Below the pieces are notes generated by a model. The model had not been told where the DNA came from. It was given only the letters and a program-made list of their open reading frames with translations, and did no database searches. This document shows, piece after piece, positions 14,010 to 40,135 of a stretch of 64,000 nt of DNA. The position numbers were made by a program, and so were the translations under genes. The DNA is from Maricaulis sp. (GTDB taxonomy: Bacteria; Pseudomonadota; Alphaproteobacteria; Caulobacterales; Maricaulaceae), in NCBI GenBank assembly GCA_029251785.1, contig JAQXCQ010000141.1:1-64000 (forward strand), given 5' to 3'. Within the stretch, counting starts at the first letter, position 1; each line of letters begins with the position of its first letter.

Positions 14010-14044
14010 GTCACTTTCCTTGATCTTTGGTGTTGCTCGTCAGC

Positions 14045-14077
14045 GGCGAGTGGGCTTTGTATTAAATCCCACTCGCC
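14045..14077. other. Strong intergenic hairpin between aceA and aceB (10-bp perfect stem, 13-nt loop)
   Basis: GGCGAGTGGG-ctttgtattaaat-CCCACTCGCC; no U-tract on the coding strand. Confidence 0.65.
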
Positions 14078-14091
14078 TCAGCTTGGGGGAT

Positions 14092-15381: not shown

Positions 15382-15524
15382 AACGGGCTCCGCCAGCTTG
15401 TGTGTTTATCTGTGTCTATTTTGTCAAATCAGTTACCTATCTGTCGAGACACTCTTTTATATAAAGCGGATAGCGTGTAGTGTTTTTACTTTGTTGTTTT
15501 GTTTATTTGTAAATTGGAATACAA

Positions 15525-16961
15525 ATGTCGACACCAAATCCGTTAGAAAAAATCTTCGCAGGTGCCCGGTTGCGCCATCTCAGACGGGAGCGCGGGCTAA
15601 CCCAGAGCGAAGCCGCAGATGCGCTGGGCGTTTCAGCCAGCTATCTGAATTTGCTGGAGCGAAATCAGAGACCTGTCACCGCCCGTGTCTTGCTGGCCTT
15701 GGCGGATGCATTCGAAGTCGATGTTCGGACCTTCGCAAATGATGGTGATCGCCAACTCTTATCTGACCTTAAGGAAGCAGCTTCGGATCCGGTGATCGAA
15801 TCCATAGCGCTTGACCGGATTGAGCTCAATGAACTCGCAGACGCACACCCACGCGCGGCCGAAGCATTTGCAAAGATGTATCAAGCCTATCGTGAAAGCT
15901 CCGCCGCTACCGCCGATCTTGCAACAAGAATGAGCGGGCCTGGAGCCAGCCTTGGCGGGGCCGGAACAATTCTGGAAGACGTCCGCGATGCGATTGATTC
16001 CCGGCAAAATTATTATCCTGAGCTGGAAGATGCAGCAGAGCGACTTAATTCACAAATCGGCGCCAAATCTCGACGGCGCATGGAGGTTCTGTCTGCTCAC
16101 CTCTCTGAAACTCATGGATTTAATGTTCAAATCCTTGATGAGGAGACAATGGCGGGCGCGCGCCGACGCCTTGATTTTCATGGTCGGCGACTGTTGCTTT
16201 CAGAGGCTCTTCCCCTGGAATCTCGCCCTTTTCAGATAGCCCTGGTCATCGCATCACTAGAGCTAAACGATATCCTAGACACGCTTTGCGCATCAGCCGG
16301 CCTGCCGACCGATGAGGCCCGTAAACTGTACCGAATTGGCCTTTGCAGTTATTTCGCCGGTGCAGTCTTGATGCCCTATTCTGACTTTATCACCACCGCT
16401 GAGAGAACCCGGTACGATCTCGACCGACTACAAAGACGCTTTGAGACCAGCTTTGAGCAGGTGTGTCATCGCTTGACCACGCTTCAGCGGCCTGGTGCGA
16501 GAGGTATCCCTTTCTTTATGATCAGGGTGGATCTCGCGGGCAATGTTTCGAAACGATTTGGTGGCGGCATCATTCCTTTCGCGCGATCCGGCGGGGGATG
16601 TCCGAAATGGAATCTCTATGACGCCCTGCGCACACCTCTGCGGATCATGGCGCAATCCTTCGAATTAACCGACGGAACGCGACATCTTTCTATTGCGCGC
16701 GCGCAAAGCAGTCCGGGGCCGAGTGGTCAGCCAGCCCTTCTGCATGCGATCGCCGTTGGATGCGACTGGTCTCATGCCAGCAAAATCTTGCACGCCGACG
16801 CTATTTCCCAATCGGACCCCATGCCTGTCGGAATCTCCTGTCGCCTGTGCGAACGGAGCGATTGCGCTCAACGTGCATTCCCGCCCCTGCGCCGCAAACT
16901 CAGCGTGAATCTGACACAACTTCGCGCCTCTCCGTTCGAGTTCGGCAACGATCAAACGTAA
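15525..16961 (+). CDS. XRE-family / short-chain fatty acyl transcriptional regulator (RamB/ScfR-like)
   Basis: N-terminal HTH LRHLRRERGLTQSEAADALGVSASYLNLLERNQRPV; C-terminal Cys-rich 'GISCRLCERSDCAQRAFPPL' characteristic of the ScfR/RamB type. Confidence 0.88.
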   Translation: MSTPNPLEKIFAGARLRHLRRERGLTQSEAADALGVSASYLNLLERNQRPVTARVLLALADAFEVDVRTFANDGDRQLLSDLKEAASDPVIESIALDRIELNELADAHPRAAEAFAKMYQAYRESSAATADLATRMSGPGASLGGAGTILEDVRDAIDSRQNYYPELEDAAERLNSQIGAKSRRRMEVLSAHLSETHGFNVQILDEETMAGARRRLDFHGRRLLLSEALPLESRPFQIALVIASLELNDILDTLCASAGLPTDEARKLYRIGLCSYFAGAVLMPYSDFITTAERTRYDLDRLQRRFETSFEQVCHRLTTLQRPGARGIPFFMIRVDLAGNVSKRFGGGIIPFARSGGGCPKWNLYDALRTPLRIMAQSFELTDGTRHLSIARAQSSPGPSGQPALLHAIAVGCDWSHASKILHADAISQSDPMPVGISCRLCERSDCAQRAFPPLRRKLSVNLTQLRASPFEFGNDQT

Positions 16962-17007: not shown

Positions 17008-18096
17008 CTACTCAGCCAATGCCGCGACTGCTTTCACATAGGCCGTGCGCGCATCCACCTGTTCTGCGTCGATTTCCGCCGCAATAGATTCGTCTTGCTT
17101 GGCCAGCTCATCCAGATCCTGATCGGCATAATGCATGACACCCATGTCGATATAGGCTTTTTGGATGCGCGGCCCCCAAAGACCGATATCCTTAACCACC
17201 GGAACGATGCGCTGGAACAACATCGTGCGGAATAGATTCATCATATCAGACTTTTCGACCCAGGCGACACACTCGTCGACCGGCAAGCCCAACACCTCAT
17301 ATGTCTCACGGGCGGAGAAGCGGTCGCGCATCAGATAGCAGGCCTCAACCAAAAACTCTTCGCGCTCATCACGTTCAGCGTCTGTAAGTTGCGGATAATA
17401 GTCCCGCAAAGTGAGGCGCCCGAATGCAACATGACGCGCTTCGTCCTCCATGACGTAGGCATTGACCATCCGGGTTAGAGGATTTTGCGACATATCCCGG
17501 ATTGTGCCAAAGGCGGCCAGCGCCAGCCCCTCGATGACAACCTGCATGGCCAAATAGGTCATATCCCAACGCGGATCCCGAAGAGCCTGATCGACCAAGT
17601 GCTGCAGAGGCTCGGTCATCGGATAAGCGACGTTGAACTTTTGTAGCAATTTTTTGTACGCCTCGACGTGGCGCGCTTCATCCATAGTTTGGGTCGACGC
17701 ATAAAACTTGGCGTCCAGATCTGGAACTTGGGTGACGATTTTTGCAGCGCAAACGAGTGCTGCCTGCTCACCCTGCATGAATTGTGAAATATTCCAGGCC
17801 TGACCATGACGGCGAAGCTCCCGACGCTCCTTCTTGGTCATTTTTTCCCATATCGGAGATCCAAAAAGGGCGTTGGATTCATCTGGTAGCTGCATTGGGT
17901 TATCAAAATCCAGATCCAGATCCCAATCGATGCGACTAACCGCATCCCACTGCATGTCCTTGCCCTTTTGATACAAGTGCATGAGGCTGTTGCGCCCCGG
18001 CCCGTAATCAAAGTCGAAAGCGGCATTAAAATCCTGCGGAACTGTCCAGCAAGGGTCGATTGCTGGGATTGGGTAGAGCTCGCTAAGAGAGGACAT
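17008..18096 (-). CDS. Ferritin-like / di-iron oxygenase family protein (AurF- or R2-like)
   Basis: Two carboxylate/His motifs (TMDEARHVEAYKK and YVMEDEARHVAFGRL) plus helical fold. Confidence 0.75.
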   Translation of the reverse strand: MSSLSELYPIPAIDPCWTVPQDFNAAFDFDYGPGRNSLMHLYQKGKDMQWDAVSRIDWDLDLDFDNPMQLPDESNALFGSPIWEKMTKKERRELRRHGQAWNISQFMQGEQAALVCAAKIVTQVPDLDAKFYASTQTMDEARHVEAYKKLLQKFNVAYPMTEPLQHLVDQALRDPRWDMTYLAMQVVIEGLALAAFGTIRDMSQNPLTRMVNAYVMEDEARHVAFGRLTLRDYYPQLTDAERDEREEFLVEACYLMRDRFSARETYEVLGLPVDECVAWVEKSDMMNLFRTMLFQRIVPVVKDIGLWGPRIQKAYIDMGVMHYADQDLDELAKQDESIAAEIDAEQVDARTAYVKAVAALAE

Positions 18097-18145: not shown

Positions 18146-18160
18146 GTAAACACTGTTCAC
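18146..18160. promoter_or_regulatory. Imperfect palindrome GTAAACACTGTTCAC, candidate operator (site 1)
   Basis: About 50 bp upstream of the di-iron protein start; 12/15 match to sites 2 and 3 when reverse-complemented. Confidence 0.5.
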
Positions 18161-18228: not shown

Positions 18229-19182
18229 CTATTCCGCTGGCGACCCGGGCAATTCAGCGCCCTCTTCGTTAATTGTGGATTTATTCCGCTCCCTCCATCG
18301 ACTGAGAATTTGCTTGGACGTCATGCGGGTTCCATCGGGTGACCATCCAGGGGGGGCCAGTAAATACATCGCCGCATCCCGCAATGTCTTGGCCTTTCGA
18401 ATATCGTCGATGATTGCAAACCACTCATGTGTCGCAATGATGAGAGGGTTATGTGTTCCCAAATTTTTGATGATGCCGTAGCGCGGTTTTTCGTCGTCTC
18501 GTTCGAGTTGAAAAGTTCCAAACATTTTATCCCAAACGATAAAGACGCCCGCATAATTCCTGTCGAGATACAAAGGATTGGTTCCATGATGCACGCGGTG
18601 ATGTGAAGGCGTGTTCATAAGCTTTTCGAACCAAGCAGGACATTTATCGATTGTCTCAGTGTGGATCCAGAATTGATAAATCAGATTAAACGAGCCCACG
18701 ATTGCCAGCATGACAGGATGGAAACCGGTGATGATTAAAATTGATCCCAACCACATGAACTTTAGCGTGAATGGACTTAGCCAGGGCTGTCTCAGCGCGG
18801 TAGTCAAATTGTAATGCTGGGATGAATGATGGACCACATGATCAGCCCAGAACCATCTCACGGTATGAGCAAGACGGTGACTCCAATAATACATGAAGTC
18901 GTACAGAATGAAGGCCAAAACCCAAACCCACCAGGAAAAATCGAGGGTGACCAAACGGTGCTCATAAACAAAGAAATACCAGACCATCAGGATGCCGGTA
19001 AAGACCAGGCTGGACACGTTATTGCCCACCCCCATGGCCAGGCTGGCAAAGCTGTCCCTGGTCTCAAAACGACCCCTTTGCCCGCGTTTGGTTATCCACA
19101 TCTCCATGAAAACTGAAATCGTGAAATAAGGGATCGCCCAGACAATGGGATCAAACCCCTGAATAAACTCTGGAACATTCAT
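18229..19182 (-). CDS. Sterol desaturase / fatty acid hydroxylase superfamily membrane protein
   Basis: Histidine boxes YWSHRLAH, HHSSQHYN, SHHRVHHG with multiple TM segments. Confidence 0.88.
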   Translation of the reverse strand: MNVPEFIQGFDPIVWAIPYFTISVFMEMWITKRGQRGRFETRDSFASLAMGVGNNVSSLVFTGILMVWYFFVYEHRLVTLDFSWWVWVLAFILYDFMYYWSHRLAHTVRWFWADHVVHHSSQHYNLTTALRQPWLSPFTLKFMWLGSILIITGFHPVMLAIVGSFNLIYQFWIHTETIDKCPAWFEKLMNTPSHHRVHHGTNPLYLDRNYAGVFIVWDKMFGTFQLERDDEKPRYGIIKNLGTHNPLIIATHEWFAIIDDIRKAKTLRDAAMYLLAPPGWSPDGTRMTSKQILSRWRERNKSTINEEGAELPGSPAE

Positions 19183-19678: not shown

Positions 19679-22342
19679 TTACCGGCGAATTCGCAGGGTC
19701 AGACCGTAAGTCTGTGGATCACCAGGATACTGGTTGAAGCTTGTGCCCGGAAGACCCACGGATGGGAAACCGCCTTTGACAAAATCTTCATCCATGATGT
19801 TCCGGCCCCAGGCGCGAAGCTCCCAGCCACCATCAATATCAGCAAGCGCGATGCTCGCATTGTAGAGGGTGAAGGCGTCCTGGTTACCAACTGCGCGCTC
19901 ATCACGACCAGTTACCAGACCATAGCCTGCTGTGTGGAATGCTTCCGCCCGCCACTGCATCTCCATCGAGTCGCCAAGGGAATGTGTGTAGGTCGATGTG
20001 ACACTACTCACAAATTCAGCATTGCCGCGGGAGACATTTGACAGGTTGTTATAGGTACCGAATGGACGCGTCGGATCGGTTGTTCCGGCGGAGTCGATGA
20101 TCGGGAAGCCTGTGTAACAGGTCGCCACTGCAACGTCTGGACAAGGTGCGCCGAAGAATTCGACATACTTGTTTTCAGTCAGAGCGGTGAAACCACCTGT
20201 GACATCCCAGTTATCCAGAATGGCCCAATTGGCCTCAAACTCGATACCATTGACCTGAATTTCACCGGCATTCTGAAGCGCAAAGCCCGAACCAACGAAG
20301 TTGTTAGACTGGAAGTCCTCAACATTCTGCTCGAAGTAAGCGATCGAATACTGGATAGCTCCATCAGGTGTGACACCCTTGGCACCAATTTCAATCGACG
20401 TGGTGTTTTCTTCTTCGAACTCAAAGATGCCAGTGAAGGCAGCGTTGGCAGAAAGGTTGAAACCACCAGGCTTGAAGCCGGTTGAATAGCTGACATACGT
20501 GTTCAGATAATCATTCCAGTCGTGCGCCAGGATCATGTTGTACGAGAAATTATCATCTGTACGTGATCCGCCCGGGAAACCACCGGCAGGCAGTGGTGGA
20601 TTAAGCGACACCGCTGCACCGAACGGGATTAGGAAGTTTGCTGCAGGGTCTTGAGCCAAAGCCAATGGAAGTGGCATCGTTGGATCGATGAGCATTCCAC
20701 CACCAGCAAGAATTGCTGGTACGAGATAGGCGCAAGTATCAGGTATTGCCGGGTTTAAGCATGTACCCGCAGAAACCAAACGCAGATCCTGAGCAAGAGA
20801 CACATAATCGATGGCGGAAATTGCGTCATCGATATTGACTGTCGGTGTCATTGTCTTTTCTTCAGTCGACCAACGACCACCAACTGTAAAGGTGGTGCGA
20901 TCGCTAAGGTGCCAATCCATCGTCGCAAAGAACGATGTTGATTCCGTCTGGTAGTCATAAAACTCTTCGACCAGACCTGAACCGTTTGCGAGGTAACCCT
21001 CTGTCGGAACAGTTGGGAATGGTGAGGCTCCCGTCAGCGACACAAGCGTGCCAAGTGGAAGCGCGCCACCATTGTTCGCGTTGATCATCAGCTCCAGGAA
21101 CGTTGGGAAACCCATTGGTGGAAGACCCAAACCGCCCGTGATCGGTGCCATAAGACCGGTTGTCGCCAGATCGAAGAACGGACGAATGTCCGAACCCAGA
21201 GGCGTATTGTTCCGGAATTGCAGATCGTTATCGTAGTAGAACCCGCCCATCATCCAGTCGATGTCACCACCGCCAGTCGAAGTCAGACGAATTTCCTGCG
21301 TGAAGGAATCGTAAGTCTGCTGGATGCGACGGCGCTGAGCCAAATCGAGGGTCGAGAAGTCAGCATCGATATCCTGATCTTCGTCATAAGTACGCTGAGA
21401 TGTGATGGATGTCAGAGTGAAACCATCAAAATCCCAGTTTACTTCAGCTGACAAACCGGAGTTCGTCAGACCGGTGTTGACACGGCCGTTAGCAGCCAAC
21501 AGGCCTGCGTGTGGGTTCGCAGGAAGGATTGTGGCACCCAACAAGGCCATAGCACCTAGATCCGCTGGATCGTAGGAAGCAAATGGAGCGGCACAGCAAT
21601 TCTCGTTCAGCTCGCTGGAGTCAGCAATAATGCGAACGGTCATGTCGTCGGACGGTGTCCACAGGACCTGACCGCGAACAACCTGACGATCACGATTATT
21701 GATTTCGCGGCCGTCGTAATTGACGAGGAAGCCATCAGCTTCGTTCGTTGTCACATCGAGACGGACTGCGATGTCATCTGTGAGCGCGCCTGTACCGGAA
21801 GCGGACAGAATGCGGGTATTGTAGTTGCCCATGGTAAAGGCAGCTTCAAACCCTGTGTCAAACTGAGGCTCTTGCGTGATGAAGCTCACGACACCTGCTG
21901 GCGTGTTACGGCCAAACAAGGTGGACTGTGGGCCGCGCAGCACTTCGACACGTTCGATGGAGACGAGATCATTGATCGCCGCACCGGAACGTGGGCGATA
22001 AACGCCATCAACAAAGATACCAACGGATGGCTCGAGGCCTGGATTAAAGCTCGACGTCCCCAAGCCGCGCAATGCGAACTCAGTATTCGTCGATGATGCA
22101 AATTCAGCAACGCGCAAGGATGGAACAAGTGTCTGCAGATCCGCGGCGTCGCGGATCGTAGATTGCTCGATCGACTCTGCTGTAACAACAGCAACGGAAA
22201 TCGGAACTTCCTGCAGAGTTTGCTCACGCTTCTGCGCGGTAACGGTAATGGAATCGACCTGTGCAAGAGCACCGGAAGCACCAATAAGCGTCGTTAAAAT
22301 AGCGGTCGTGCCCAGTGTGGCCGCCTTGGAAAACAGTTTCAT
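19679..22342 (-). CDS. TonB-dependent receptor
   Basis: Plug (ITVTAQKREQTLQEVPISVAVVTAESIEQSTIRDAADLQTLVPSLRV, RVEVLRGPQSTLFGRNTPAGVVSFIT), C-terminal barrel; start set at MKLFSKAATLG (ORF track 22411). Confidence 0.93.
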   Translation of the reverse strand: MKLFSKAATLGTTAILTTLIGASGALAQVDSITVTAQKREQTLQEVPISVAVVTAESIEQSTIRDAADLQTLVPSLRVAEFASSTNTEFALRGLGTSSFNPGLEPSVGIFVDGVYRPRSGAAINDLVSIERVEVLRGPQSTLFGRNTPAGVVSFITQEPQFDTGFEAAFTMGNYNTRILSASGTGALTDDIAVRLDVTTNEADGFLVNYDGREINNRDRQVVRGQVLWTPSDDMTVRIIADSSELNENCCAAPFASYDPADLGAMALLGATILPANPHAGLLAANGRVNTGLTNSGLSAEVNWDFDGFTLTSITSQRTYDEDQDIDADFSTLDLAQRRRIQQTYDSFTQEIRLTSTGGGDIDWMMGGFYYDNDLQFRNNTPLGSDIRPFFDLATTGLMAPITGGLGLPPMGFPTFLELMINANNGGALPLGTLVSLTGASPFPTVPTEGYLANGSGLVEEFYDYQTESTSFFATMDWHLSDRTTFTVGGRWSTEEKTMTPTVNIDDAISAIDYVSLAQDLRLVSAGTCLNPAIPDTCAYLVPAILAGGGMLIDPTMPLPLALAQDPAANFLIPFGAAVSLNPPLPAGGFPGGSRTDDNFSYNMILAHDWNDYLNTYVSYSTGFKPGGFNLSANAAFTGIFEFEEENTTSIEIGAKGVTPDGAIQYSIAYFEQNVEDFQSNNFVGSGFALQNAGEIQVNGIEFEANWAILDNWDVTGGFTALTENKYVEFFGAPCPDVAVATCYTGFPIIDSAGTTDPTRPFGTYNNLSNVSRGNAEFVSSVTSTYTHSLGDSMEMQWRAEAFHTAGYGLVTGRDERAVGNQDAFTLYNASIALADIDGGWELRAWGRNIMDEDFVKGGFPSVGLPGTSFNQYPGDPQTYGLTLRIRR

Positions 22343-22552
22343 AGGATATTTCTCCCCTCGTAACGCGGTTATCAACCAACCAGTCCGCGTATATGGATTG
22401 TATTTGAACATTGTCAGACCACGCTGTCAGCCTGTTTGTGTCATATTTGCAAAAAAGATGCCGGTGCTGATGCAAGCATGCCGCACTTTCTAAATTTGGC
22501 GAAGAACACACCCGCCCTCTTTCCAGACCAGTATTGTCTGCTAGGCTGGCCA

Positions 22553-22567
22553 GTGAACAGCGTTCAT
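22553..22567. promoter_or_regulatory. Palindrome GTGAACAGCGTTCAT, candidate operator (site 2)
   Basis: TGAAC-n3-GTTCA; 28 bp upstream of the serine hydrolase start; identical (reverse complement) to site 3. Confidence 0.55.
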
Positions 22568-22594: not shown

Positions 22595-23866
22595 ATGATT
22601 ATTCGCAATATTTTCATTGGACTAGCAGCAATCATCACCATTTGCGGAGCGCTCTTTGGCGGTTGGTATTATCGGCCATGGTCGAACTTTTCACCCGCCG
22701 AAATGAGCGCGGCTTCGGCTCCAGACCAGCTGGTGAGCTCATTTCGCCGTATGGACGAAATTTACCCCAACCGCGTGATTCACGCCGATTCTACCGCTAC
22801 TCCGCTCTCTCGAAACGTCGAAAATGCTGATGTTTTGATCAATTGGCTTGACGCCGAGAAGCCGGTTTCCGAATGGCTGCGCGAATCCGACTCAACCGGT
22901 TTGATGGTCCTGCATAATGGTGAGGTCGTGCACGAGGAATATTTCCTCGAGGCGGATGTGGAAACGCGACACACCTCATGGTCAGTCGGTAAAAGCTATG
23001 TTGCGACGCTCATCGCGATTGCCATGCGAGAGGGACATATCAGCAGTCTGGATCAGACGGCGGAAATGTTTGCGCCTCAGTTTGGCGGGACCGACTATGG
23101 CGAAACAACGCTTCGACATCTTCTGATGATGTCCGCGGGCGTCAATTTTGATGAAGACTACGGAAATGTCGATTCAGATATTCGGGTCCTGTTCGCCGCT
23201 CCCGCTATGGGACAGAGCATCGATAATTTGGTCGGTCAGGTCGAGCGCGATCGAGAGCCCGGTGAAGACCTCCATTACGTGAGTGCAAATACACAAGTCC
23301 TCTCGGCCGTGGTTCGGGGTATCTACAACGCACCTCTCGCCGAAATAGTTCAGACGAAAATCTGGGAACCAATCGGCATGGCCGGCGATGCCAGTTGGAA
23401 CCAGAACATCCCAGGCGAAAGCGGCCATGCAATTGGCTATTGCTGTCTCAATGCCCGACTGGAGGAATACGCCCGCTTCGGCCAGTTCTACCTCCAAGAC
23501 GGTGTTTGGAATGATGAGCGAATTTTACCGGAAGGCTGGGTTGAAATGGCGACGCGGCCCAACGCGGACTTTCAGAATGCTGGAGATGATTCCGTTTATC
23601 CTCCGCGCGGTTACGGTCTACATTTCTGGGTACCCAATGATCATGACGGCGAATATTTCATGGCGGGTGTGTTCGGCCAATATGTCTGGGTCGACGAGCG
23701 ACGCAATATTGTAATTGCGCGCACTGCTGCGGATCAGACATGGTCCAACCGAACCCGCGAATCCATTGCTGCGATGCGCGCATTAGCGGCACATTATGGC
23801 GATCCGATTGATGATCTTGCAAACGACGATCTTCCTGCATTAACAGAGGCTGACGCGGATGGATGA
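22595..23866 (+). CDS. Serine hydrolase (class C beta-lactamase / 6-aminohexanoate-dimer hydrolase NylB-like)
   Basis: SxxK motif in HTSWSVGKSYVATLIAIA; LLMMSAGVNFDEDYG; start chosen at MIIRN with upstream GGGGAGGA. Confidence 0.87.
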   Translation: MIIRNIFIGLAAIITICGALFGGWYYRPWSNFSPAEMSAASAPDQLVSSFRRMDEIYPNRVIHADSTATPLSRNVENADVLINWLDAEKPVSEWLRESDSTGLMVLHNGEVVHEEYFLEADVETRHTSWSVGKSYVATLIAIAMREGHISSLDQTAEMFAPQFGGTDYGETTLRHLLMMSAGVNFDEDYGNVDSDIRVLFAAPAMGQSIDNLVGQVERDREPGEDLHYVSANTQVLSAVVRGIYNAPLAEIVQTKIWEPIGMAGDASWNQNIPGESGHAIGYCCLNARLEEYARFGQFYLQDGVWNDERILPEGWVEMATRPNADFQNAGDDSVYPPRGYGLHFWVPNDHDGEYFMAGVFGQYVWVDERRNIVIARTAADQTWSNRTRESIAAMRALAAHYGDPIDDLANDDLPALTEADADG

Positions 23867-25463
23867 TACCGTATTCGACTATATCATTGCCGGTGCTGGA
23901 TCGGCTGGTTGCACAGTGGCTGAACGCCTGTCGCGCGACCGGAATGTAACGGTTTGCGTGCTAGAAGCGGGCGGATCCGATGATAGCCCCATCATTCGCA
24001 CACCGATGTTGCTGCAGTTTGCGGTAACCGGAGAAGCATTCAATTGGGGATATTGGACCGAAAAACAGAAAAACCTCAATGATCGGGAACTTTGCTGGCC
24101 GCGGGGAAAGACGCTGGGCGGATCGTCCTCGATCAATGCGATGCATTATATGCGCGGAGCGCGTCAAAACTTCGACGAATGGGAACAGACCTATGGGGCC
24201 GAAGGCTGGGGTTGGAAAAACGCCCTACCGGCCTTCAAGGAAGTACAAAACCAAACACGCGGTGGCGATGACCTCCATGGAACAGGCGGTCCGCTGTGGG
24301 TGCAGGACATCAATGATCTGAGTCCACTAACCGAGGCCTTCTTCAAAGCTGGGGACCAGCTCCAATACCGCCGAAATGGTGATTTCAATGGACCGGAACA
24401 AGAGGGTTTCGGTCCCTACCAGGTTACCCAGCGCGGCAATAAGAGATGTAGTGCAGCCGACGCGTTTCTTCGACCGGCGCTGGAGCGCGACAATTGCACA
24501 GTGACGACCCAGGCGATGGTGCAACGCGTTATTATCGAGAATGGGCGGGCTACCGGCGTTGAGGTCGACATTGACGGTGAAAGAAAAACCTTCACTGCTC
24601 GCAAAGAGGTCATCCTCTCCGGAGGCGCTATCAACTCGCCACAGACGCTTCTTCTATCCGGAATCGGTCCCGCCAATGAATTGCGTGACGATGGTGTTTC
24701 CGTCGAACATGATCTGCCGGGTGTCGGGAAAAACCTGCAAGATCATCTCGATATAACGGCCCAACTCTGGACCAAGTCCGCTCTCTCAATCGGCAATTCC
24801 CTACGATCCATGCCCAGTCATCTCTACATGGTCGCGCGTTGGGCGATGAGAGGTGATGGACCGTTCACGAACAATCCGGTTCAAGGCGGTGCTTTTATCA
24901 AGTCAGCCTTTGCGGAAGACCTTCCTGACTTGCAGCTCGTCTTTATTCCAGCGATTTCAAACCCCCACGGGATTGAGAAAGCCTGGGGCCACGGCGTTAC
25001 ACTGCATGTCTGCCAGTTATACCCGAAGAGCCGCGGTGAAATCCGTTTAAAAACAACAAACCCTTCGGATCATCCGCTGATACAACCTAATTATTTGGAT
25101 GACGAATTTGACCTGGACGTGATGGTCGACGGCCTAGCCAAGGCGCGTGAAATTCTCGATTCACCCGCCTTTGACTTTGATCGCAAAGCGGAGCGCTTCC
25201 CCGGTCCTGAGGTCCAGACTCGGGCCCAACTCGCTGATGACATTCGTGCGCGTGCCGAGACGCTGTATCATCCGACTTCGACCTGCGCGATGGGTTCCGG
25301 TGAGCTCTCGGTCACGGACAGTCGTTGCCGGGTTAAGGGCATTAATGGGCTTCGTGTGGTTGATGCCTCTGTTATGCCACGTCTTGTCGGTGGGAACACC
25401 AATGCACCTACGATCATGATCGCGACCCGGGCGGCTCAGATGATCGCCGAAGATAACGCCTGA
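23859..25463 (+). CDS. GMC-family FAD-dependent oxidoreductase (choline/alcohol dehydrogenase type)
   Basis: DYIIAGAGSAGCTVAERLS, GKTLGGSSSINAMHYMRG, LSGGAINSPQTLLLSGIGP, YHPTSTCAMG...VDASVMPRLVGGNTNAPTIMIATRAA; overlaps upstream gene by 8 nt. Confidence 0.95.
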   Translation: MDDTVFDYIIAGAGSAGCTVAERLSRDRNVTVCVLEAGGSDDSPIIRTPMLLQFAVTGEAFNWGYWTEKQKNLNDRELCWPRGKTLGGSSSINAMHYMRGARQNFDEWEQTYGAEGWGWKNALPAFKEVQNQTRGGDDLHGTGGPLWVQDINDLSPLTEAFFKAGDQLQYRRNGDFNGPEQEGFGPYQVTQRGNKRCSAADAFLRPALERDNCTVTTQAMVQRVIIENGRATGVEVDIDGERKTFTARKEVILSGGAINSPQTLLLSGIGPANELRDDGVSVEHDLPGVGKNLQDHLDITAQLWTKSALSIGNSLRSMPSHLYMVARWAMRGDGPFTNNPVQGGAFIKSAFAEDLPDLQLVFIPAISNPHGIEKAWGHGVTLHVCQLYPKSRGEIRLKTTNPSDHPLIQPNYLDDEFDLDVMVDGLAKAREILDSPAFDFDRKAERFPGPEVQTRAQLADDIRARAETLYHPTSTCAMGSGELSVTDSRCRVKGINGLRVVDASVMPRLVGGNTNAPTIMIATRAAQMIAEDNA

Positions 25464-25483: not shown

Positions 25484-26905
25484 ATGAGCGATGCAGACGC
25501 CAAGCAGATTGAACGCATGAAATCTCTTCTCGCCACGCAAAAATCGGCGTTCCGCGCGGATAGCCATCGGGATGTCAATCGCCGCAAGGATGACCTCGAC
25601 CGGCTAATATCCCTCTGCCAGAAGAATGTCGACGCAATCGCCGATGCGATCTGCCATGACTTTGGAAATCGCGCCCGTCAGGAAAGTGTAATCGCTGAGA
25701 TAGCGTTCACGATTCAGGACGCCAAACACACCAAGAAACATCTCTCCAAATGGATGGCACCCAAACGCAAGCCCCTCCCAATGACACTGCAACCAGGCAA
25801 AGCCTATGTTCGCCGTGAGCCGGTTGGAGTCGTGGGCATAATCGCGCCATGGAATTATCCGTTCCAGATGGCGACGGCCCCACTCGTCGCGGCACTCGGC
25901 GCTGGCTGTCGGGTAATGCTGAAACCCTCCGAGCATACGCCGGCAACTTCGGAATTACTCAAGACGTTGATCGCGGAGCATTTCGAAGAAGATCATGTGA
26001 CCGTCGTGACCGGCGGTCCCGCCGTCGGCGAGGCATTCAGCAAGCTCAAATTCGATCACCTATTCTATACCGGCTCCACGCAAGTGGGCCGACTAATCGC
26101 TTTGGCGGCTGCGGAAAACCTGGTGCCGACGACGCTCGAACTTGGCGGAAAGTCACCCGCGATTCTAACCGATAATTACCCGGTTAGGGCCGCGGCAAAA
26201 TCACTGGGTTGGGGCAAATGTTATAATGCCGGCCAGACCTGCGTTGCGCCGGATTATCTGATGGTTCCCAATGGCAAAGAGCGAGAGGTTGCGGAAGAAA
26301 TCATCCGGGTCGTGCAACACCAGCATCCTGAGGCGGCCTCCGATGACGCCTTTACCGCAATCGTCTCGGACCGCCACTATGAACGCTTGAATGCTATGAT
26401 TGAGGAGGCGCGCTCCGGGGGGGCAGAAATTCTGCAACCCGACCATGATGTCGAGGCCGCCAAGGCTGCGCGGAAAGTTCCGCCAACCATCATCCTCAAC
26501 GCGCCGGACGATAGCAAAATCCTGACCGAGGAAATCTTCGGCCCCATACTCCCTATCATCGGATACACCTCGCTGGATGCAGCAACAAACTATATCAGTG
26601 ACCGCCCTCACCCTCTGGCCCTTTATGTCTATTCTTCGGACAAACAGCAGACTCAACGGGTCCTGAATGCGACACAGTCCGGCGGAGCAGGCGTCAATAT
26701 CAATATCGTCCATCTCTCTGTTCCCGATCTGCCCTTCGGTGGTGTCGGCGCATCCGGCCATGGGGCCTATCATGGCGAATACGGCTTTTTGACCTTCACA
26801 CATGAGCGCGCGGTTCTTGAAACCGGCAAATGGCACCCGTCCAGTCTGCTTGCTCCTCCGTACGGGAAAGTCTACGAGGCGGTCGCAAAGAAGCAGCTTA
26901 AATAG
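25484..26905 (+). CDS. Aldehyde dehydrogenase (coniferyl aldehyde dehydrogenase type)
   Basis: GIIAPWNYPFQMATAPLVAALGAGCRVMLKPSEHTPATS, FTGSTQVGRL, TLELGGKSPAI, NAGQTCVAPDY, EEIFGPILPI. Confidence 0.94.
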   Translation: MSDADAKQIERMKSLLATQKSAFRADSHRDVNRRKDDLDRLISLCQKNVDAIADAICHDFGNRARQESVIAEIAFTIQDAKHTKKHLSKWMAPKRKPLPMTLQPGKAYVRREPVGVVGIIAPWNYPFQMATAPLVAALGAGCRVMLKPSEHTPATSELLKTLIAEHFEEDHVTVVTGGPAVGEAFSKLKFDHLFYTGSTQVGRLIALAAAENLVPTTLELGGKSPAILTDNYPVRAAAKSLGWGKCYNAGQTCVAPDYLMVPNGKEREVAEEIIRVVQHQHPEAASDDAFTAIVSDRHYERLNAMIEEARSGGAEILQPDHDVEAAKAARKVPPTIILNAPDDSKILTEEIFGPILPIIGYTSLDAATNYISDRPHPLALYVYSSDKQQTQRVLNATQSGGAGVNINIVHLSVPDLPFGGVGASGHGAYHGEYGFLTFTHERAVLETGKWHPSSLLAPPYGKVYEAVAKKQLK

Positions 26906-26917
26906 GCGACTGAATTC

Positions 26918-27676
26918 ATGAGCGGATCCCTAACTGGAAAGACAGCCCTGATCACTGGTTCGAGCCAAGGCGTCGGCCTGGCCTGTGCACACACTTTCGC
27001 CCAACAAGGTTGCCAGGTCATTCTGCATGGCAATCGCAGCATGTTTGAAGCTGATAAAGCGGTTCAGGACATCGGCCCGCTCGCGCTCGGAGCGGTCGAG
27101 GCCAATCTTTTGTTACCGGGAGCCGGGCGAGACCTGTACGACCAGGCGATGCGACTTGCGGAAGGTCGTATCGATATTGTCGTCAATAATGCCGGTATCG
27201 ACTGGGACAGCCCCCTTGATGCGTCCGACGAGACCTGGGAGGCTAATTGGGCCGGTGTCTTGCAGGTCAATTTGATGGCTGTTGCGGATATCTGTCGTGC
27301 CGCGATGCCCGGCATGGTGGAGCGCGGCGGAGGGGCGATCATCAACATTTCCAGCCGCGCCGGACATCGCGGCGAAGACCGCGATCATATGGCTTATGCG
27401 GCTTCAAAAGGGGGCGTGCTCGCTCTGACGAAAACGCTGGCGCGACAATGGGGGGCTGACAATATCTTCGCCTATGCCATCGCTCCCGGCTGGATTGATA
27501 CGCGAATGGCCCCTCAGACCGCAACGGCGCGGGCGGCGGCTCACTCAGAAATTCCGATTGGCAAAATGGCCGATCCGAAGGAAATCGCCTCAATGTGCGC
27601 CTTTCTGGCCTCAGGGGCTTGTGTTAGCGCCACTGGATCGTGCGTGGATATCAATGGTGCCAGTTACGTTCGCTGA
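26918..27676 (+). CDS. SDR-family oxidoreductase
   Basis: TGxxxGxG (TGSSQGVGLA), NNAG, YAASKGG motif. Confidence 0.93.
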   Translation: MSGSLTGKTALITGSSQGVGLACAHTFAQQGCQVILHGNRSMFEADKAVQDIGPLALGAVEANLLLPGAGRDLYDQAMRLAEGRIDIVVNNAGIDWDSPLDASDETWEANWAGVLQVNLMAVADICRAAMPGMVERGGGAIINISSRAGHRGEDRDHMAYAASKGGVLALTKTLARQWGADNIFAYAIAPGWIDTRMAPQTATARAAAHSEIPIGKMADPKEIASMCAFLASGACVSATGSCVDINGASYVR

Positions 27677-27692: not shown

Positions 27693-28652
27693 TCACCTCA
27701 CCCAGGAATCCAGGTCGAGAGATGTTGAGCGAGATAAATCTATCAGTTCACGGCGAAACCGTGGGCGAAGTTCATCGATAACGGATTGGCCAAGTTGCGG
27801 TGCCCGCGTGCTGTTTAGACGTCGCGCTTGCTGCATCAAGTATCGCCGCCAATGGCGTGGCAACAGATCGCGCAGGCTGGATTTCAACGCTGATGAATGG
27901 CGAAACCAGCGCTCAATTGCTTGATTTGCAGGCATATGAGACAAGCGGGATGTATCATTGATCCGATCTTCGGAGCGTTGGACTTGATAGTCCCCTACAC
28001 CAACAAATCGACAGATACGCGACATGACCGATTGCGGTGCTGCGACCAGATCGTCATAGCGCAAGGCCAAGCATTGATGCGCCGGGAAACGATTTCGAAA
28101 GCGCGCCCATTGTTGATTATACAGCCCGGCCCGTCGGTAGTGAAAACCCCACCACCAACCCTGTTCGACACGCTCTTCTTCGAGCGCCAGAGCCTGTTGA
28201 AACGCACCGGCAGGCTCGTATCCATCGCGGCGATTGTGCCGATACTGACTGAACGCGCGGGCGACTGGGTCACGGAAAATCGCGATTATTTTCGCGGCCG
28301 GATTGAACCGATGAATCGCGTCTGCTGCGTCCGGATAATACAAATAGGCGGGAGATGCGTCTCCCATTACGTGCGCAACCGGCGCATCTTCATAGAGACC
28401 GGTTTAGGCTCGACGCGTTCTTGTCAAAGTCGAGAGATAGTTGACGTCCATCTCTGATCCGGCAGAAATCTTATCCAAACCTCGAAAGGCGAAGTAGCCA
28501 GGCTCCTTTGTGCTTGGAAAGAAAATTTCGGGGTGGTGGCGTAGCCATTCCCACAAGATCGTGGTGCCAGACTTCGCTGCTCCAACGATGAATAGCGACG
28601 GAAGGCGGGGCATGATGGCACCTTTGCTGGGTACCCATGCAGAAGGGAGCAA
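27693..28652 (-). pseudogene. Sulfotransferase-family protein interrupted by an in-frame TAA
   Basis: N-terminal PAPS P-loop LFIVGAAKSGTTILWEWLRHHPEIFFPSTKEPGYF and C-terminal half MGDASPAYLYYPDAADAIHRFNPAAKIIAIFRDPVARAFSQYRHNRRDG lie in the same frame, separated by TAA at 28406-28404. Confidence 0.8.
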
Positions 28653-34948: not shown

Positions 34949-35193
34949 TAACTCGCTCGAGCGCGCGAAGAAATCTCGCCTTCTGAGGCAAGAAAACTCT
35001 CGCCAAATCTCGCCGACTCTGTCACGTATACCTCGATACTCGAAGTCGGCTAATCGTCGTTCCGCGTATAATTTGAAGTCCGAAATGGACCGTTATCTTG
35101 ATCGTACAGAGTGACACAAACATTTGAACAAGCAATTCGAGTGTTTTTCTTGGGAAAGCGGCCTCTGCCGCAAAAAATTTGGGGAATACAGTT

Positions 35194-35661
35194 ATGGGGC
35201 GTAAACGCTTTGATGAAATGCCTTGCGCAATTGCGCAGACACTCAACCAAGTCGGCGACTGGTGGACCCTGCTCATCGTCCGCGATGCCATGAAGGGCGC
35301 ACGCCGATTCAGCGACTTCCATGAAAGTACCGGTATCGCAAAAAATATCCTGACAGACCGCCTTAACAAGCTCGTCGAAAACGGTGTGATGGAGCGCGAA
35401 GAAGTCGGTGTGCGGGGCCAGCGCCAAGAATATATCCTGACCGAACGCGGCGAGGAATTATTTCCGGTTTTGATGGCCATGCAACAATGGGGCGATAAAT
35501 GGATCTACGGCGAAGCGGAAGCGCCGATCGTCGTTATCGACACCGATACTGGAGAGGCTCTCGCACCGATTAAAGTGGTCAATGAAAGCGGAACGGTACT
35601 GACGCACCGCGACGTTACCCGGAAGGCCGGTCCCGGTCTGGAGTTAAAAGCCGTAGGCTGA
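35194..35661 (+). CDS. HxlR-family winged-helix transcriptional regulator
   Basis: CAIAQTLNQVGDWWTLLIVRDAMKGARRFSDFHESTGIAKNILTDRLNKLVENGVMER. Confidence 0.94.
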   Translation: MGRKRFDEMPCAIAQTLNQVGDWWTLLIVRDAMKGARRFSDFHESTGIAKNILTDRLNKLVENGVMEREEVGVRGQRQEYILTERGEELFPVLMAMQQWGDKWIYGEAEAPIVVIDTDTGEALAPIKVVNESGTVLTHRDVTRKAGPGLELKAVG

Positions 35662-35700: not shown

Positions 35701-35715
35701 ATGAACGCTGTTCAC
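35701..35715. promoter_or_regulatory. Palindrome ATGAACGCTGTTCAC, candidate operator (site 3)
   Basis: Exact reverse complement of the 15-mer at 22553-22567; lies 37 bp upstream of the beta-helix gene start. Confidence 0.55.
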
Positions 35716-35751: not shown

Positions 35752-37005
35752 ATGACATTCAAGACATCAGTGGAATTCGTCAGGCGCTTTGCCTGCCTGA
35801 CCATCAGCGTTGGCCTTGTGGCTTGCGGCGAAACCAGCGAGCGGGACCTCGCGGGTGCCGATCGTGTTTTCCAGACGCAATTGATCGAGCAACTCATCGA
35901 TGCCCAACCTGGCGATATCATCGAGATTCCGGAAGGAATATTTGCCTTCGACCGCAGTCTCAGCCTGATCGTTGATGGTGTCACATTGCGCGGCCAGGGT
36001 ATGGATCGCACCATTTTATCCTTCCAAAATCAAATCGTTGGCGCGGAAGGTCTGATCGTGACCGCAAGCGACTTCACACTGGAAAACCTTGCTATTGAAG
36101 ACACTGTTGGCGATGGCGTGAAGGTCAATGAGGGCAATAATATTGTCATTCGTGGCGTCCGCGTTGAGTGGACGGCCGGTCCGCGAACCGAAAACGGCGC
36201 CTACGGCCTCTATCCCGTGCAGACAACGAATGTGCTCTTGGAAGATAATATCGTAATCGGAGCCTCTGATGCTGGCATCTATGTCGGCCAGTCTGAAAAC
36301 GTGGTTGTACGCCGGAATCGAGCCGAGCGAAACGTCGCAGGAATAGAAATTGAAAACACATTCAATGCTGATGTCTATGACAACGTAGCGACTGAAAATA
36401 CCGGTGGCATACTCGTTTTTAACATGCCGAACCTGCCGCAACGCGGTTATCAAACCCGGGTCTTCGACAATCAAATCTTTGCCAATAATACGGGCAATTT
36501 TGGCCATGCCGGGACACCCGTCGCCTCCGTTCCCGCCGGTTCTGGCATTGTGATCAATTCAAATGATGATGTCGAAATTTTCAATAATGAGATTTCCGAC
36601 AATCGAACGGCCAACATTATTATTTCCAGTCTGCATTCTGCGAATTATGCCGGCTATGCTGCGCAGGATAATTTTGACCCCTATCCGGAGGGCATACATA
36701 TCCATGGGAATACGTTTTCGGGTGGTGGTAATGATCCGGACGGATTGGATCTGCAAGCGCTCAAATTACTGTTAGTCGGCCCGCTCGGGCGGATGCCGGA
36801 CGTGGTCTGGGACGGATATTTTGATGCCGACAAGTTGATCGACGGGACCATGCCCGACGCGCTGCGAATTTGCCTCGATAATAGCGATGCGGGCTTGGTG
36901 AATGTGGATGGACCCAATGATTATGCGTCCCCTGAGATCGTTACTGACCAGCATCAATGCAGCCTGGCACCCTTACCGGCTGTTGAGCTGGCAGCAGCGC
37001 GTTGA
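35752..37005 (+). CDS. Parallel beta-helix repeat lipoprotein (TIGR03805-like)
   Basis: Signal plus lipobox-like LVACG; repeated right-handed beta-helix patterns (NIVIRGVRVEWT, NVLLEDNIVIGASDAGIYVGQSENVVVRRNRAERNVAGIEIENTFNADVYDNVATENTGGILVFNMP). Confidence 0.9.
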   Translation: MTFKTSVEFVRRFACLTISVGLVACGETSERDLAGADRVFQTQLIEQLIDAQPGDIIEIPEGIFAFDRSLSLIVDGVTLRGQGMDRTILSFQNQIVGAEGLIVTASDFTLENLAIEDTVGDGVKVNEGNNIVIRGVRVEWTAGPRTENGAYGLYPVQTTNVLLEDNIVIGASDAGIYVGQSENVVVRRNRAERNVAGIEIENTFNADVYDNVATENTGGILVFNMPNLPQRGYQTRVFDNQIFANNTGNFGHAGTPVASVPAGSGIVINSNDDVEIFNNEISDNRTANIIISSLHSANYAGYAAQDNFDPYPEGIHIHGNTFSGGGNDPDGLDLQALKLLLVGPLGRMPDVVWDGYFDADKLIDGTMPDALRICLDNSDAGLVNVDGPNDYASPEIVTDQHQCSLAPLPAVELAAAR

Positions 37006-38123
37006 AGATCCGTCTCCTGCTTGGCGCTTTGACGCTGCTGGTTGCGGCCTGCTCGCCACCGCAGATGGCTCCGACCTTTATTAGCGAGGGCAATCCAGCA
37101 CTGCTGAGCGAGTGGGGAATGATGCAGTCTGATGGGTCGCGCCTGACCCTCTCCGACGGCGTCATGGCCTTTGATCTCAATACGCCCTTGTTTACCGATT
37201 ACGCCCATAAGCAGCGCACAATCTGGATCCCAGATGGCCTGCAGGCCGAATATCGGGAGGGTGAAGTCCTCGACTTTCCTGTGGGAACGGTCATCACCAA
37301 AACGTTTTATTATCCGCGTGGTGAGAATAGCGATGAAGTTGTCCGCACAAATCAGAGGGCTGATGGGTGGCGTTCGGATGGACTCGTTCTGACCGACCTT
37401 CGTTTGATGGAAACGCGCATTTTGGTTCATCGCGAAGACGGCTGGACCGCCCTTCCCTATGTTTGGAATGCCGAACAGACCGACGCCCACCTCTCTCGGG
37501 CTGGACACATTCAGCGACTGACCCTGCTTTCTGATCGCCAGAACAGCCAGGATTTCGCCTATGTTGTACCGAATGCCAATCAATGTGCAGGCTGTCACGC
37601 CGTCAATAATACCACGCGGGAATTACTCCCCATCGGACCGGCCGCACGGCATTTAAACCGTGTCTATGAATACCCAGAAGGACCGGCAAACCAGCTGCAG
37701 ACACTCGTCGATGCAGGATATCTCGACACCTGGCCTGGCGGGGACCAAACACCTCGAGCCGCCGCTCTTTTTGACGCTATGGCACCACTCAACGAACGGG
37801 CGCGCAGCTATCTCGATATCAATTGCGCACACTGCCACAATCCTGTCGGCCCAGCGGACACGTCTGGACTGCACCTCAATTTCAACGCGCCACTTAATGC
37901 GAATCTCGGACTGTGCAAATTACCAATAGCGGCGGGCGGTGGAACGGGTGGCCGACACCACACGATCGTTCCCGGCCAACCAAACCTCTCTATCCTATTG
38001 TACCGTATGGAAATTATGGACCCCGCTTCGCTAATGCCCGAGCTTGGTCGGTCTACAGTACATGATGAGGGGGTCGCGCTGATTTCTGAGTGGATCTCAT
38101 CCCTCGAGGGAACTTGCGCGTAA
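37002..38123 (+). CDS. Di-heme c-type cytochrome lipoprotein, SO2930/HNE_0200 family (TIGR03806-like)
   Basis: Lipobox VAAC; two CxxCH sites (CAGCH, CAHCH); PIGPAARHLNRVYEY; overlaps the beta-helix gene by 4 nt. Confidence 0.9.
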   Translation: MKIRLLLGALTLLVAACSPPQMAPTFISEGNPALLSEWGMMQSDGSRLTLSDGVMAFDLNTPLFTDYAHKQRTIWIPDGLQAEYREGEVLDFPVGTVITKTFYYPRGENSDEVVRTNQRADGWRSDGLVLTDLRLMETRILVHREDGWTALPYVWNAEQTDAHLSRAGHIQRLTLLSDRQNSQDFAYVVPNANQCAGCHAVNNTTRELLPIGPAARHLNRVYEYPEGPANQLQTLVDAGYLDTWPGGDQTPRAAALFDAMAPLNERARSYLDINCAHCHNPVGPADTSGLHLNFNAPLNANLGLCKLPIAAGGGTGGRHHTIVPGQPNLSILLYRMEIMDPASLMPELGRSTVHDEGVALISEWISSLEGTCA

Positions 38124-38170: not shown

Positions 38171-38403
38171 GTTTTCAGACATTGAGGGCGCGAGGAAGTA
38201 TGGTTAGTCTTCGCGCCGGCGCATAGGGGAAGACAGTGTCGGCGGCTCGATATCAAGCGGCCTCAAAGCCTGCCCTCCCTATAAGAACGAGCTGTCCAAA
38301 TGCCCGGTATCAGGCAGTTGAGCGGGCCGCTTACATAAATCGCTATCGGGCGAAGTGTTTCGCCTGGTTTTCTATTGGTCGATATTATCTGGGGAAGATA
38401 ACA

Positions 38404-38727
38404 ATGACACTGACGACCCTCATGGCCTCCGCGGCCCTTTCATTCATGATTCACGATCCCGCTATGGACACATTGATCGCCAATGCGATCCAGGTTCAGG
38501 CCGGTGACGTGACCTACACCACATTCTTCGAGTCTGATGGCAGCTACACAACCGATGTCGGCATTACCGGCACCTGGCATGTGGATGGCGATCAGTTGTG
38601 CATCCAGCGCTCTAGTGGCGAGGGTGGTTGCCAGCCGCTGCAAGCTGATCTCAATGTTGGCGATAGCTGGTCAGGCATCAATGCCGCAACTGGTGCCACT
38701 GTGACCTACACCATCGTCACACGCTAA
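38404..38727 (+). CDS. Small hypothetical secreted protein
   Basis: MTLTTLMASAALSFMIHDP..., GTWHVDGDQLCIQRSSGEGGCQPL; start chosen at 38404. Confidence 0.65.
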   Translation: MTLTTLMASAALSFMIHDPAMDTLIANAIQVQAGDVTYTTFFESDGSYTTDVGITGTWHVDGDQLCIQRSSGEGGCQPLQADLNVGDSWSGINAATGATVTYTIVTR

Positions 38728-38788: not shown

Positions 38789-40135
38789 CTATTCAACAAT
38801 ATTCTCGTCGATCTCGCGCGCAATCCGGATACCGATACTACTGGCTTTTGTTGTTAGCCCAATAGAGGAGCGGTTGGCTGATCGCGACACTTGCGGCGTA
38901 TCAAGCCATGAGCCGCCGCGCTGGACGCGGCGCGTGCAATCTCCGTTGCGGCGGGCACCGCCATTATCTGGCGCGCGGCGGTAATCATTCGCCCAGCAGT
39001 CCAGCGTCCATTCCCAGACATTGCCATGCAGATCAAATAAGCCAAATGCATTGGGTGCGAAGCTGCCCACCGGAGCCGGGCTGTAATGATCATCATCACA
39101 TTCGGCGCGGTCTTCATTGTCGGACCCGACCTCATCGCTGAAGGCGTCATCGGCGACATTGCCCAATTGGCAATCCCAGTCATTATTACCCGACCAGGCA
39201 TGATCGCTGCCGGCACGGGCCGCGTATTCCCATTCCGCTTCGCTGAGCAGGCGGTAGCGTTCTCCGGTATGGCCAGACAACCAGTCCACATAAGCCTGGG
39301 CATCATCCCAACTCACGCACGTTACCGGGTGATTGGCGGTCTGAATATGCCCGGGATCCTGCCACGTCACCGAGCGCTCATCCGTCCAGACATTATCGGC
39401 CCAAGTCTGACAACCCTCAGACATTCTGTAACGTGCATCATCGACAAACCGTTCGAATTCGCCGACCGAAATTTCGTATTTTCCGACGGCAAATGACGAA
39501 GCGAGAGGGACAGTCCGAACTGGCCCCTCATCACTGTCACGCCCGTATTCAGACCGACGGGAACCCATGGAAAACTCCCCGGCAGGCAAAACCACCATTT
39601 CCGGGCAATCTTCGCAATCGTGAAAGCTGGAGCCGACCGGTGTGCCGGTTTCCGCAAGGGTCTCAAAATCTGGGAGTTGATTGAGCTCGGCATTGCGCCG
39701 ATCGATCACGGCCTGCTGCTCAACTGCCTCTTCGGCGCGATGCTGACGGGTCGCTGGATCGCGATCCGCCTCGTCGTAAAATGCCAATGCCTTGTGATAG
39801 ACCTCGCCCTCACTTCCGGCGCGTTCAATGTAGTCGGCCAGCGGAGCCAAGGCCGCATACGCCTGCCCGGCTCGCAGCAGAGCCTTACCTTCGAAAAAAC
39901 TCAACATTGGTGGCAGCGGCTCATCGCGCTCGATATCATTGAGCTCGATTATGGTTTCTAGCACTAACGGCCAGTCCTCGTCGCCGTCGGCCAGCTCCAC
40001 GCGGCCAGACAACATGTCGAAACGCGCTTCATCGGAGAGCTGGGCGTGCGTGTTCGCCGGAGACAGCCACAACGTCAATGCCAGTGCCGATACGCTGATA
40101 GATTTGCTGGTGAAACTTGTTCCCATTATACGCAC
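38789..40135 (-). CDS. Secreted SUMF1/formylglycine-generating-enzyme-fold protein
   Basis: MVVLPAGEFSMGSRRSEYGRDSDEGPVRTV, HPVTCVSWDDAQAYVDWLSGHTGERYRLLSEAEWEYAARAG, NAFGLFDLHGNVWEWTLDCW, RRVQRGGSWLD; N-terminal signal peptide. Confidence 0.92.
   Translation of the reverse strand: MRIMGTSFTSKSISVSALALTLWLSPANTHAQLSDEARFDMLSGRVELADGDEDWPLVLETIIELNDIERDEPLPPMLSFFEGKALLRAGQAYAALAPLADYIERAGSEGEVYHKALAFYDEADRDPATRQHRAEEAVEQQAVIDRRNAELNQLPDFETLAETGTPVGSSFHDCEDCPEMVVLPAGEFSMGSRRSEYGRDSDEGPVRTVPLASSFAVGKYEISVGEFERFVDDARYRMSEGCQTWADNVWTDERSVTWQDPGHIQTANHPVTCVSWDDAQAYVDWLSGHTGERYRLLSEAEWEYAARAGSDHAWSGNNDWDCQLGNVADDAFSDEVGSDNEDRAECDDDHYSPAPVGSFAPNAFGLFDLHGNVWEWTLDCWANDYRRAPDNGGARRNGDCTRRVQRGGSWLDTPQVSRSANRSSIGLTTKASSIGIRIAREIDENIVE

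Follow-up and report, generated by a model that had tools for sequence, protein, structure and literature searches.

Two families of envelope proteins, a right-handed beta-helix lipoprotein (TIGR03805) and a diheme c-type cytochrome (TIGR03806, which now carries the NCBIfam name SO2930-family diheme c-type cytochrome), are known to be encoded in tandem, and the locus described here raises the question of what such a pair does. The locus lies in a stretch of 64,000 nucleotides of Maricaulis sp. DNA (contig JAQXCQ010000141.1), referred to below as the window. Among named relatives, those of highest identity to the genome are Maricaulis. A literature search returned no described function for the TIGR03805/TIGR03806 pair and none assigned to TIGR03806, and publications on SO2930, SO2929, HNE_0200 and TIGR03805 held passing mentions only, with no functional work on the pair. 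This agrees with a preliminary description of the same DNA, which had named the two as tandem families lacking a defined function. It had also listed two ORFs overlapping by 4 nt, their signal peptides and lipoboxes, two CxxCH sites, an upstream HxlR gene and two palindromes, all of which were found where it had placed them (Table 1). The window genes themselves are a typical case of the known gene pair; the novelty lies in the evidence bearing on how such a pair works.

Both proteins exceed the NCBIfam cut-offs of their families. The beta-helix protein scores 446.9 bits against TIGR03805 (cut-off 141.5; model positions 1-313 of 314), and the cytochrome, with its two CxxCH sites, scores 384.9 bits against TIGR03806 (cut-off 313.3; model positions 2-314 of 314). 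As expected of the tandem pair, the genes are neighbours on one strand with the beta-helix leading, and the two frames share the sequence TTGA. The beta-helix gene is taken to start at the ATG at 35752, which has GGGAGAG just 5′ of it and at which the signal peptide begins; an alternative, longer frame from an ATG at 35701 would engulf the palindrome. Downstream of the pair, positions 38236-38727 encode a small secreted protein of unassigned family that is found directly 3′ of the pair or of a lone beta-helix gene in six Maricaulis loci. It is followed on the opposite strand (38789-40135) by a PvdO-like protein with an FGE-sulfatase domain (242 bits, short of the cut-off of 500).

Table 1. Features of the window (positions in the 64,000-nucleotide stretch)
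Feature	Position	Strand	Remarks
AurF-like diiron oxygenase	17008..18096	-	PF11583; same predicted regulon
One-mismatch palindrome TAAACACTGTTCA	18147..18159	.	51 bp before AurF-like gene (-)
Fatty-acid-hydroxylase-superfamily protein	18229..19182	-	PF04116; same predicted regulon
TonB-dependent receptor	19679..22411	-	PF00593/PF07715; divergent from operon, shares site 22554
Reverse complement of palindrome TGAACGCTGTTCA	22554..22566	.	between TonB receptor (-) and esterase-GMC-ALDH-SDR operon (+)
Beta-lactamase-fold esterase-like protein	22595..23866	+	PF00144; first operon gene; ORF listed from 22436
GMC oxidoreductase, choline-dehydrogenase-like	23859..25463	+	PF00732/PF05199
Aldehyde dehydrogenase (ALDH)	25484..26905	+	PF00171
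Short-chain dehydrogenase (SDR)	26918..27676	+	PF13561
HxlR-family regulator	35179..35661	+	PF01638, 83 bits; present in part of genus only
Predicted palindromic operator TGAACGCTGTTCA	35702..35714	.	37 bp before beta-helix ATG; conserved in relatives
TIGR03805 right-handed beta-helix lipoprotein	35752..37005	+	417 aa; NCBIfam, Pfam Beta_helix
Lipobox LVAC of beta-helix protein	35815-35826	+	signal peptide
TIGR03806 / SO2930-family diheme c-type cytochrome lipoprotein	37002..38123	+	373 aa; TTG start; NCBIfam
Lipobox VAAC of cytochrome	37041-37052	+	signal peptide
Heme-binding motif 1, CAGCH	37584..37598	+	residues 195-199; C195, C198, H199 invariant in alignments
Heme-binding motif 2, CAHCH	37824..37838	+	residues 275-279; C275, C278, H279 invariant in alignments

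Whether the two proteins belong together can be judged from their occurrence in other genomes. In a family search of 101 related genomes each family was present in 66, and the two lay side by side in 64, more often than chance would give; two further beta-helix copies among these relatives are unpaired (L061 and L062). Adjacency also holds in most canonical Bacteroidota loci, and TIGR03806 itself was detected in 42 of 399 sampled Pseudomonadota genomes and in 39 of 396 sampled Bacteroidota genomes. Five Pseudomonadota genomes encode the two as a single chain (L274 and L275, 881 aa; L276, 909 aa; L277, 1000 aa; L278, 1019 aa), and all five fusions examined run beta-helix first, then cytochrome; genome G784 has a frame as long as those of L274 and L275, which stands outside this count. 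A second cytochrome gene lies immediately 3′ of the fusion in L274, an arrangement that resembles the neighbouring Shewanella genes SO_2930 and SO_2931, listed as outer-membrane or extracellular cytochromes in a study of electron transfer (PMC4837345), and with which L274 may be identical.

The lipid anchors of the two proteins switch together. Both partners are lipoproteins in 106 pairs and neither is in 16, and in the 9 pairs that the script scored as mixed, visual inspection reveals a lipobox; a Fisher test on the unadjusted script counts, in which related sequences are not independent, gives p 4.5e-13. Unanchored pairs occur in alphaproteobacteria, including Novosphingobium, and in Bacteroidota. 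The two unpaired beta-helix genes differ in their fate. L061, of genome G015, has lost 17 of 57 family-invariant residues, among them K124, Y151, Y154, P155, D173, Y177 and E199, compared with at most three in the other sequences, and L062 has kept all invariants in a genome that also has a complete pair elsewhere. The decaying L061 gene (8889-10160) is situated between an SBF gene and the small downstream gene. Adjacency, natural fusions, joint switching of anchors and the decay of L061 therefore support the view that beta-helix and cytochrome are one functional unit, in keeping with the link that the preliminary description had drawn between them.

The part played by the cytochrome is suggested by its conserved residues and by its other partners. 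Residues invariant across 120 sequences include both heme motifs and M345-P346, together with D66, K70, R72, K100, E137, T138, R139, Y153 and W155. M345 is likely the distal (sixth) ligand of heme 2. The same alignments contain no invariant His or Met that could be the sixth ligand of heme 1; position 217, a His in the window protein, is occupied by H, N, Q or Y, and by N, Q or Y in the fusions. The N-terminal half forms a beta-rich domain (AF2 pLDDT 92), for which a PDB sequence search gave no credible match, as did a PDB fold search with the cytochrome (best Foldseek E 0.11).

A sixth position of heme 1 that is open would be expected if the cytochrome were itself the catalyst, a RoxA-like heme oxygenase or peroxidase for a hydrophobic substrate, with the beta-helix serving only to bind a polymer. 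This we consider improbable. The variability of position 217, the presence of charged and aromatic invariants in an N-domain without a PDB fold match, and the ALDH genes that adjoin the pair in several loci all suit such a catalyst, but Lys, Tyr or Asn could still ligate heme 1. Moreover, the window cytochrome matches no Pfam family at E<=0.001 and so has no CCP_MauG-type domain, which places it outside the di-heme peroxidase, MauG and RoxA families, and the same cytochrome domain elsewhere follows GSDH, a dehydrogenase that needs an electron acceptor.

GSDH (PF07995) has the fold of the PQQ glucose/sorbosone dehydrogenases. In Bacteroidota and Pseudomonadota there are seven proteins (L227-L229 and L279-L282) with the cytochrome domain directly after GSDH, and some of them also contain F5/F8C modules, starch-binding CBM26 modules or a T9SS (type IX secretion) tail. 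L280, L281 and L282 are giant secreted proteins of 2038-2369 aa in which GSDH and the TIGR03806 domain are combined with carbohydrate-binding modules, and two of the three also bear planctomycete-type PSD/PSCyt domains. A second TIGR03806 subfamily, from Flavobacteriia-like genomes (L230-L242 and L246), occurs without the beta-helix, and in most of these loci the next gene encodes a secreted, propeller-like FG-GAP/UnbV_ASPIC protein that bears a T9SS tail. Across these partner types D66, K70, R72, K100, E137, R139, Y153 and W155 of the N-domain are largely retained. Because the extracellular partner domains are exchangeable and at least one of them is a dehydrogenase, domain comparison supports reading the cytochrome as an electron-acceptor module, and the fusion to GSDH backs the earlier suggestion that it may take up electrons. 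PF07995 is absent from the window pair, which is thus not a GSDH-cytochrome quinohemoprotein; GSDH genes near the pair in Pseudomonadota were seen in L075 and L126 only, by estimate not above chance.

The AF2 model of the partner protein is a confident right-handed beta-helix (pLDDT 93). Its nearest PDB folds are the A-modules of the alginate C5-epimerases AlgE4 and AlgE6 (Foldseek E 1.3e-8, TM about 0.53), followed by polysaccharide lyases and fructotransferases. Residues W140, Y151, Y154, P155, D173, Y177, Q180, E199, E201 and N202 are conserved across phyla, and W140, Y151, Y154, D173, Y177, Q180, E199 and E201 are retained in the fusions wherever they are aligned. From the fold we infer that the conserved residues form one groove, which would be the working site. 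The YGxxP motif (Y151-P155), which we take to recall the YGFDPH motif of AlgE4, reads YG(I/L)YPV in nearly all sequences at the aligned positions; as the Asp and His of the epimerase are absent, the protein falls outside the AlgE epimerase family.

No redox cofactor site was recognised in the beta-helix. Since it occupies the same place before the cytochrome as GSDH does, the beta-helix most likely holds the substrate that is being oxidised. It is rather unlikely that the beta-helix is itself the oxidoreductase, with an unrecognised cofactor or radical site among the invariant W140, Y151, Y154, D173, Y177, Q180, E199 and E201, replacing the PQQ propeller and handing electrons to the attached diheme domain. 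A beta-helix electron-transfer dehydrogenase has not, to our knowledge, been described, and a protein of this kind would be an oxidoreductase of a new fold class.

Against the NosD model (TIGR04247) the beta-helix scores 37.6 bits, with a cut-off of 300, and there are no nos genes among the annotated window genes. A NosD-type copper-binding reading of the beta-helix was set aside on this score. It is also very unlikely that the two proteins help to assemble or mature some other envelope enzyme, in the way that NosD serves nitrous oxide reductase: the NosD/CASH-type fold would fit, but beyond the pair itself no neighbouring gene is conserved across genera, and the interchange of beta-helix and GSDH before the cytochrome is better suited to substrate handling.

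The regulation of the pair ties it to other genes of the window. Exact copies of TGAACN3GTTCA occur in the window at 35702 and 22554 only. The genome contains 11, where about 3 are expected in 3.16 Mb (ten fixed bases, uniform base composition), and none of a reversed control pattern. The window and 40 neighbourhoods, 789 kb altogether, hold eight exact palindromes and no control pattern, and all eight are located at the start of a beta-helix gene (the window, L043, L046, L053, L058, L074, L075 and L076); L085 and L096 are further cases. The preliminary description had named absence of the palindrome upstream of orthologues as grounds for abandoning its proposal, and the survey found it present there. 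The sharing with the catabolic operon at 22.6 kb, also pointed out earlier, proved real, the palindrome preceding the esterase-GMC-ALDH-SDR operon in five Maricaulis genomes (G000, G001, G010, G013 and G015). Outside the window genome it is also found upstream of the fatty-acid-hydroxylase gene in G001, G010, G013 and G015 and of the AurF-like gene in G001, G015 and G059, with exact copies in G001 and G015 in the latter case.

By its distribution, the shared palindrome is a conserved predicted operator of a regulon. That it is merely a common operator, whose presence at the 22.6-kb operon would be meaningless for the pair, appears very unlikely; some of the 11 genome sites are at genes without an obvious catabolic role (a TolC-type OEP, a VWA protein and a TPR protein), but the 8 sites in the 789 kb surveyed around the pair all mark the start of a beta-helix gene, and the same palindrome recurs at the orthologous operon in five genomes. 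The palindrome also stands at the start of a gene in L163 (G000:C17, 4983-7013) for a lipoprotein of alkyl sulfatase type, which fits an alkyl/alcohol theme for the regulon.

A general role for the HxlR regulator, whose upstream position had been noted earlier, is not supported, for its gene and the palindrome vary independently: the palindrome-bearing loci L053, L058, L074, L075 and L076 have no HxlR gene next to the pair, whereas the palindrome-lacking loci L061, L062 and L079 do. HxlR was accordingly rejected as the likely reader of the palindrome. A candidate master regulator is the TetR protein (TetR_C_33) of G000:C120 (L167, 151-2062), whose gene diverges from that of a fatty-acid hydroxylase, the intervening stretch containing two TGAACN3GTTCA sites. 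A search at E<=1e-15 turned up no homologue of it in G022 (a g5 genome) or G025 (a g8 genome), and since members of these genera (G059, G025 and G041) do carry palindromes, its role as the regulator is not established. In L047, L048 and L050, which have a convergent TetR gene (N12), a different palindrome, AACAGAA-n-TTCTGTT or AGAAAC-n-GTTTCT, is located upstream of the pair.

Positions 17008-38123, from the AurF-like diiron oxygenase to the pair, have the appearance of a catabolic island under one operator. Between the AurF-like gene and the operon are the fatty-acid-hydroxylase-like protein and the TonB receptor; the esterase, GMC, ALDH and SDR genes are followed by a sulfotransferase-like gene (27693-28367), an M19 dipeptidase and a peptide-binding protein, and a D-aminoacylase-like amidohydrolase and an SBF transporter come before the pair. 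Glyoxylate shunt genes adjoin the island, positions 12369-16961 encoding malate synthase A, isocitrate lyase and a short-chain-acyl-CoA regulator (ScfRs).

The GMC protein of the window operon has its FAD motif from residue 6 and no signal peptide, so that it cannot pass electrons directly to the cytochrome and would act after uptake; as direct electron donor it was rejected for this reason. In other genomes GMC and ALDH genes are directly upstream of the pair (L075), or a GMC gene lies 2.4 kb upstream on the same strand (G050). The earlier idea of an extracellular or periplasmic oxidation tied to this catabolism is still conjectural.

A further link is to uptake. One subfamily of TonB-dependent receptors is encoded at most 3 kb from the pair in Xanthomonadaceae, Burkholderiales, Kordiimonas, Hyphomonas and Maricaulis. 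It is present in 7 of 61 relatives searched, most of which hold many TonB receptors, and is immediately beside the pair in all seven. In the genome of the window itself, none of the 16 candidates scored out of 22 belonged to this subfamily; in the window a different TonB receptor (Table 1) shares the palindrome. In the Bacteroidota loci L149 and L160 the gene directly 3′ of the pair encodes a carboxypeptidase-regulatory-domain protein of about 795 aa.

A receptor beside the pair could also be read as part of a surface metal reductase and uptake system, in which the cytochrome would send electrons outward to Fe(III) or Cu(II) on a NosD-like beta-helix and the receptor would import the metal. 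The best matches of the adjoining receptor are siderophore-type models, all under cut-off, the beta-helix has its weak similarity to NosD, and SO_2930 is listed at the outer membrane or exterior (PMC4837345). The reading is nevertheless unlikely, as the NosD score is far short of the cut-off, the genes that adjoin the pair or share its predicted operator are catabolic (GMC, ALDH, SDR and esterase), the natural joining of the cytochrome with a sugar dehydrogenase suggests that electrons flow inward, and the regulators near the pair are of AraC, LysR, TetR and HxlR types, with no iron or copper regulator found beside it.

The reading we prefer, and to which we give about an even chance, is that the pair is an envelope redox unit that oxidises a substrate outside the cell or in the periplasm, with electrons entering the cytochrome and the product being imported. 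The two subunits would be held in the cell envelope by their lipid anchors, probably at the outer membrane, because the lipobox +2 residues are Gly (LVAC-G) and Ser (VAAC-S) and not Asp; a +2 residue other than Asp is the criterion in Lol sorting, and no +2 Asp occurs in the lipoprotein relatives. The beta-helix would bind the substrate, probably carbohydrate- or alcohol-like, in the groove lined by W140, Y151, Y154, D173, Y177, Q180, E199 and E201. Electrons from its oxidation would reach the respiratory chain by way of the diheme cytochrome, and the product would be taken up through the TonB-dependent receptor and, in Maricaulis, be processed by the co-regulated cytoplasmic alcohol and aldehyde dehydrogenases.

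The carbohydrate-type nearest fold was counted in favour of such a carbohydrate or alcohol oxidation unit. Counted against it were the unrecognised cofactor site in the beta-helix, the cytoplasmic location of the neighbouring GMC enzyme, the lack of clear enrichment of GSDH genes nearby, the failure to find the receptor subfamily in the window genome, and L062, unpaired yet intact. With the fusions and the exchange with GSDH, a pair of unassigned function becomes a proposed extracellular oxidation module that can be tested. Its cytochrome family was detected in roughly one in ten of the genomes sampled from each of two phyla, and the dedicated TonB receptor and the operator provide handles for finding the substrate.

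Among known systems, the window genes match the TIGR03805 + TIGR03806 pair (HNE_0200 / SO2930 family) in cut-offs, order, overlap and lipoprotein signals, and differ from other such pairs in their HxlR/SBF/amidohydrolase context under a predicted regulon operator. NosD, a periplasmic copper-binding protein, has CASH-type beta-helix repeats as in the window protein, which however scores far below its cut-off, with no nos genes found nearby. AlgE-type mannuronan C5-epimerases and PL6 lyases share the right-handed beta-helix fold, but the window protein has 18% identity to the AlgE-type enzymes, is without the catalytic Asp and His of their motif, and is partnered by a cytochrome. SusC/SusD and peg-type uptake systems likewise link a TonB receptor to an envelope lipoprotein and to alcohol and aldehyde dehydrogenases, whereas the linked lipoproteins are here a beta-helix and a cytochrome and not SusD. 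In the GSDH-cytochrome quinohemoproteins (PF07995 + TIGR03806 domain), which have an analogue in the AA12 pyranose dehydrogenase-cytochrome b fusions of fungi, a sugar-type catalytic domain is followed by a cytochrome acceptor domain in a secreted or surface-displayed protein. The window pair differs in having the beta-helix in the place of the PQQ propeller and in its split genes, and by analogy it appears to work like a split quinohemoprotein dehydrogenase, although it has no PQQ domain and so is not a member of that group.
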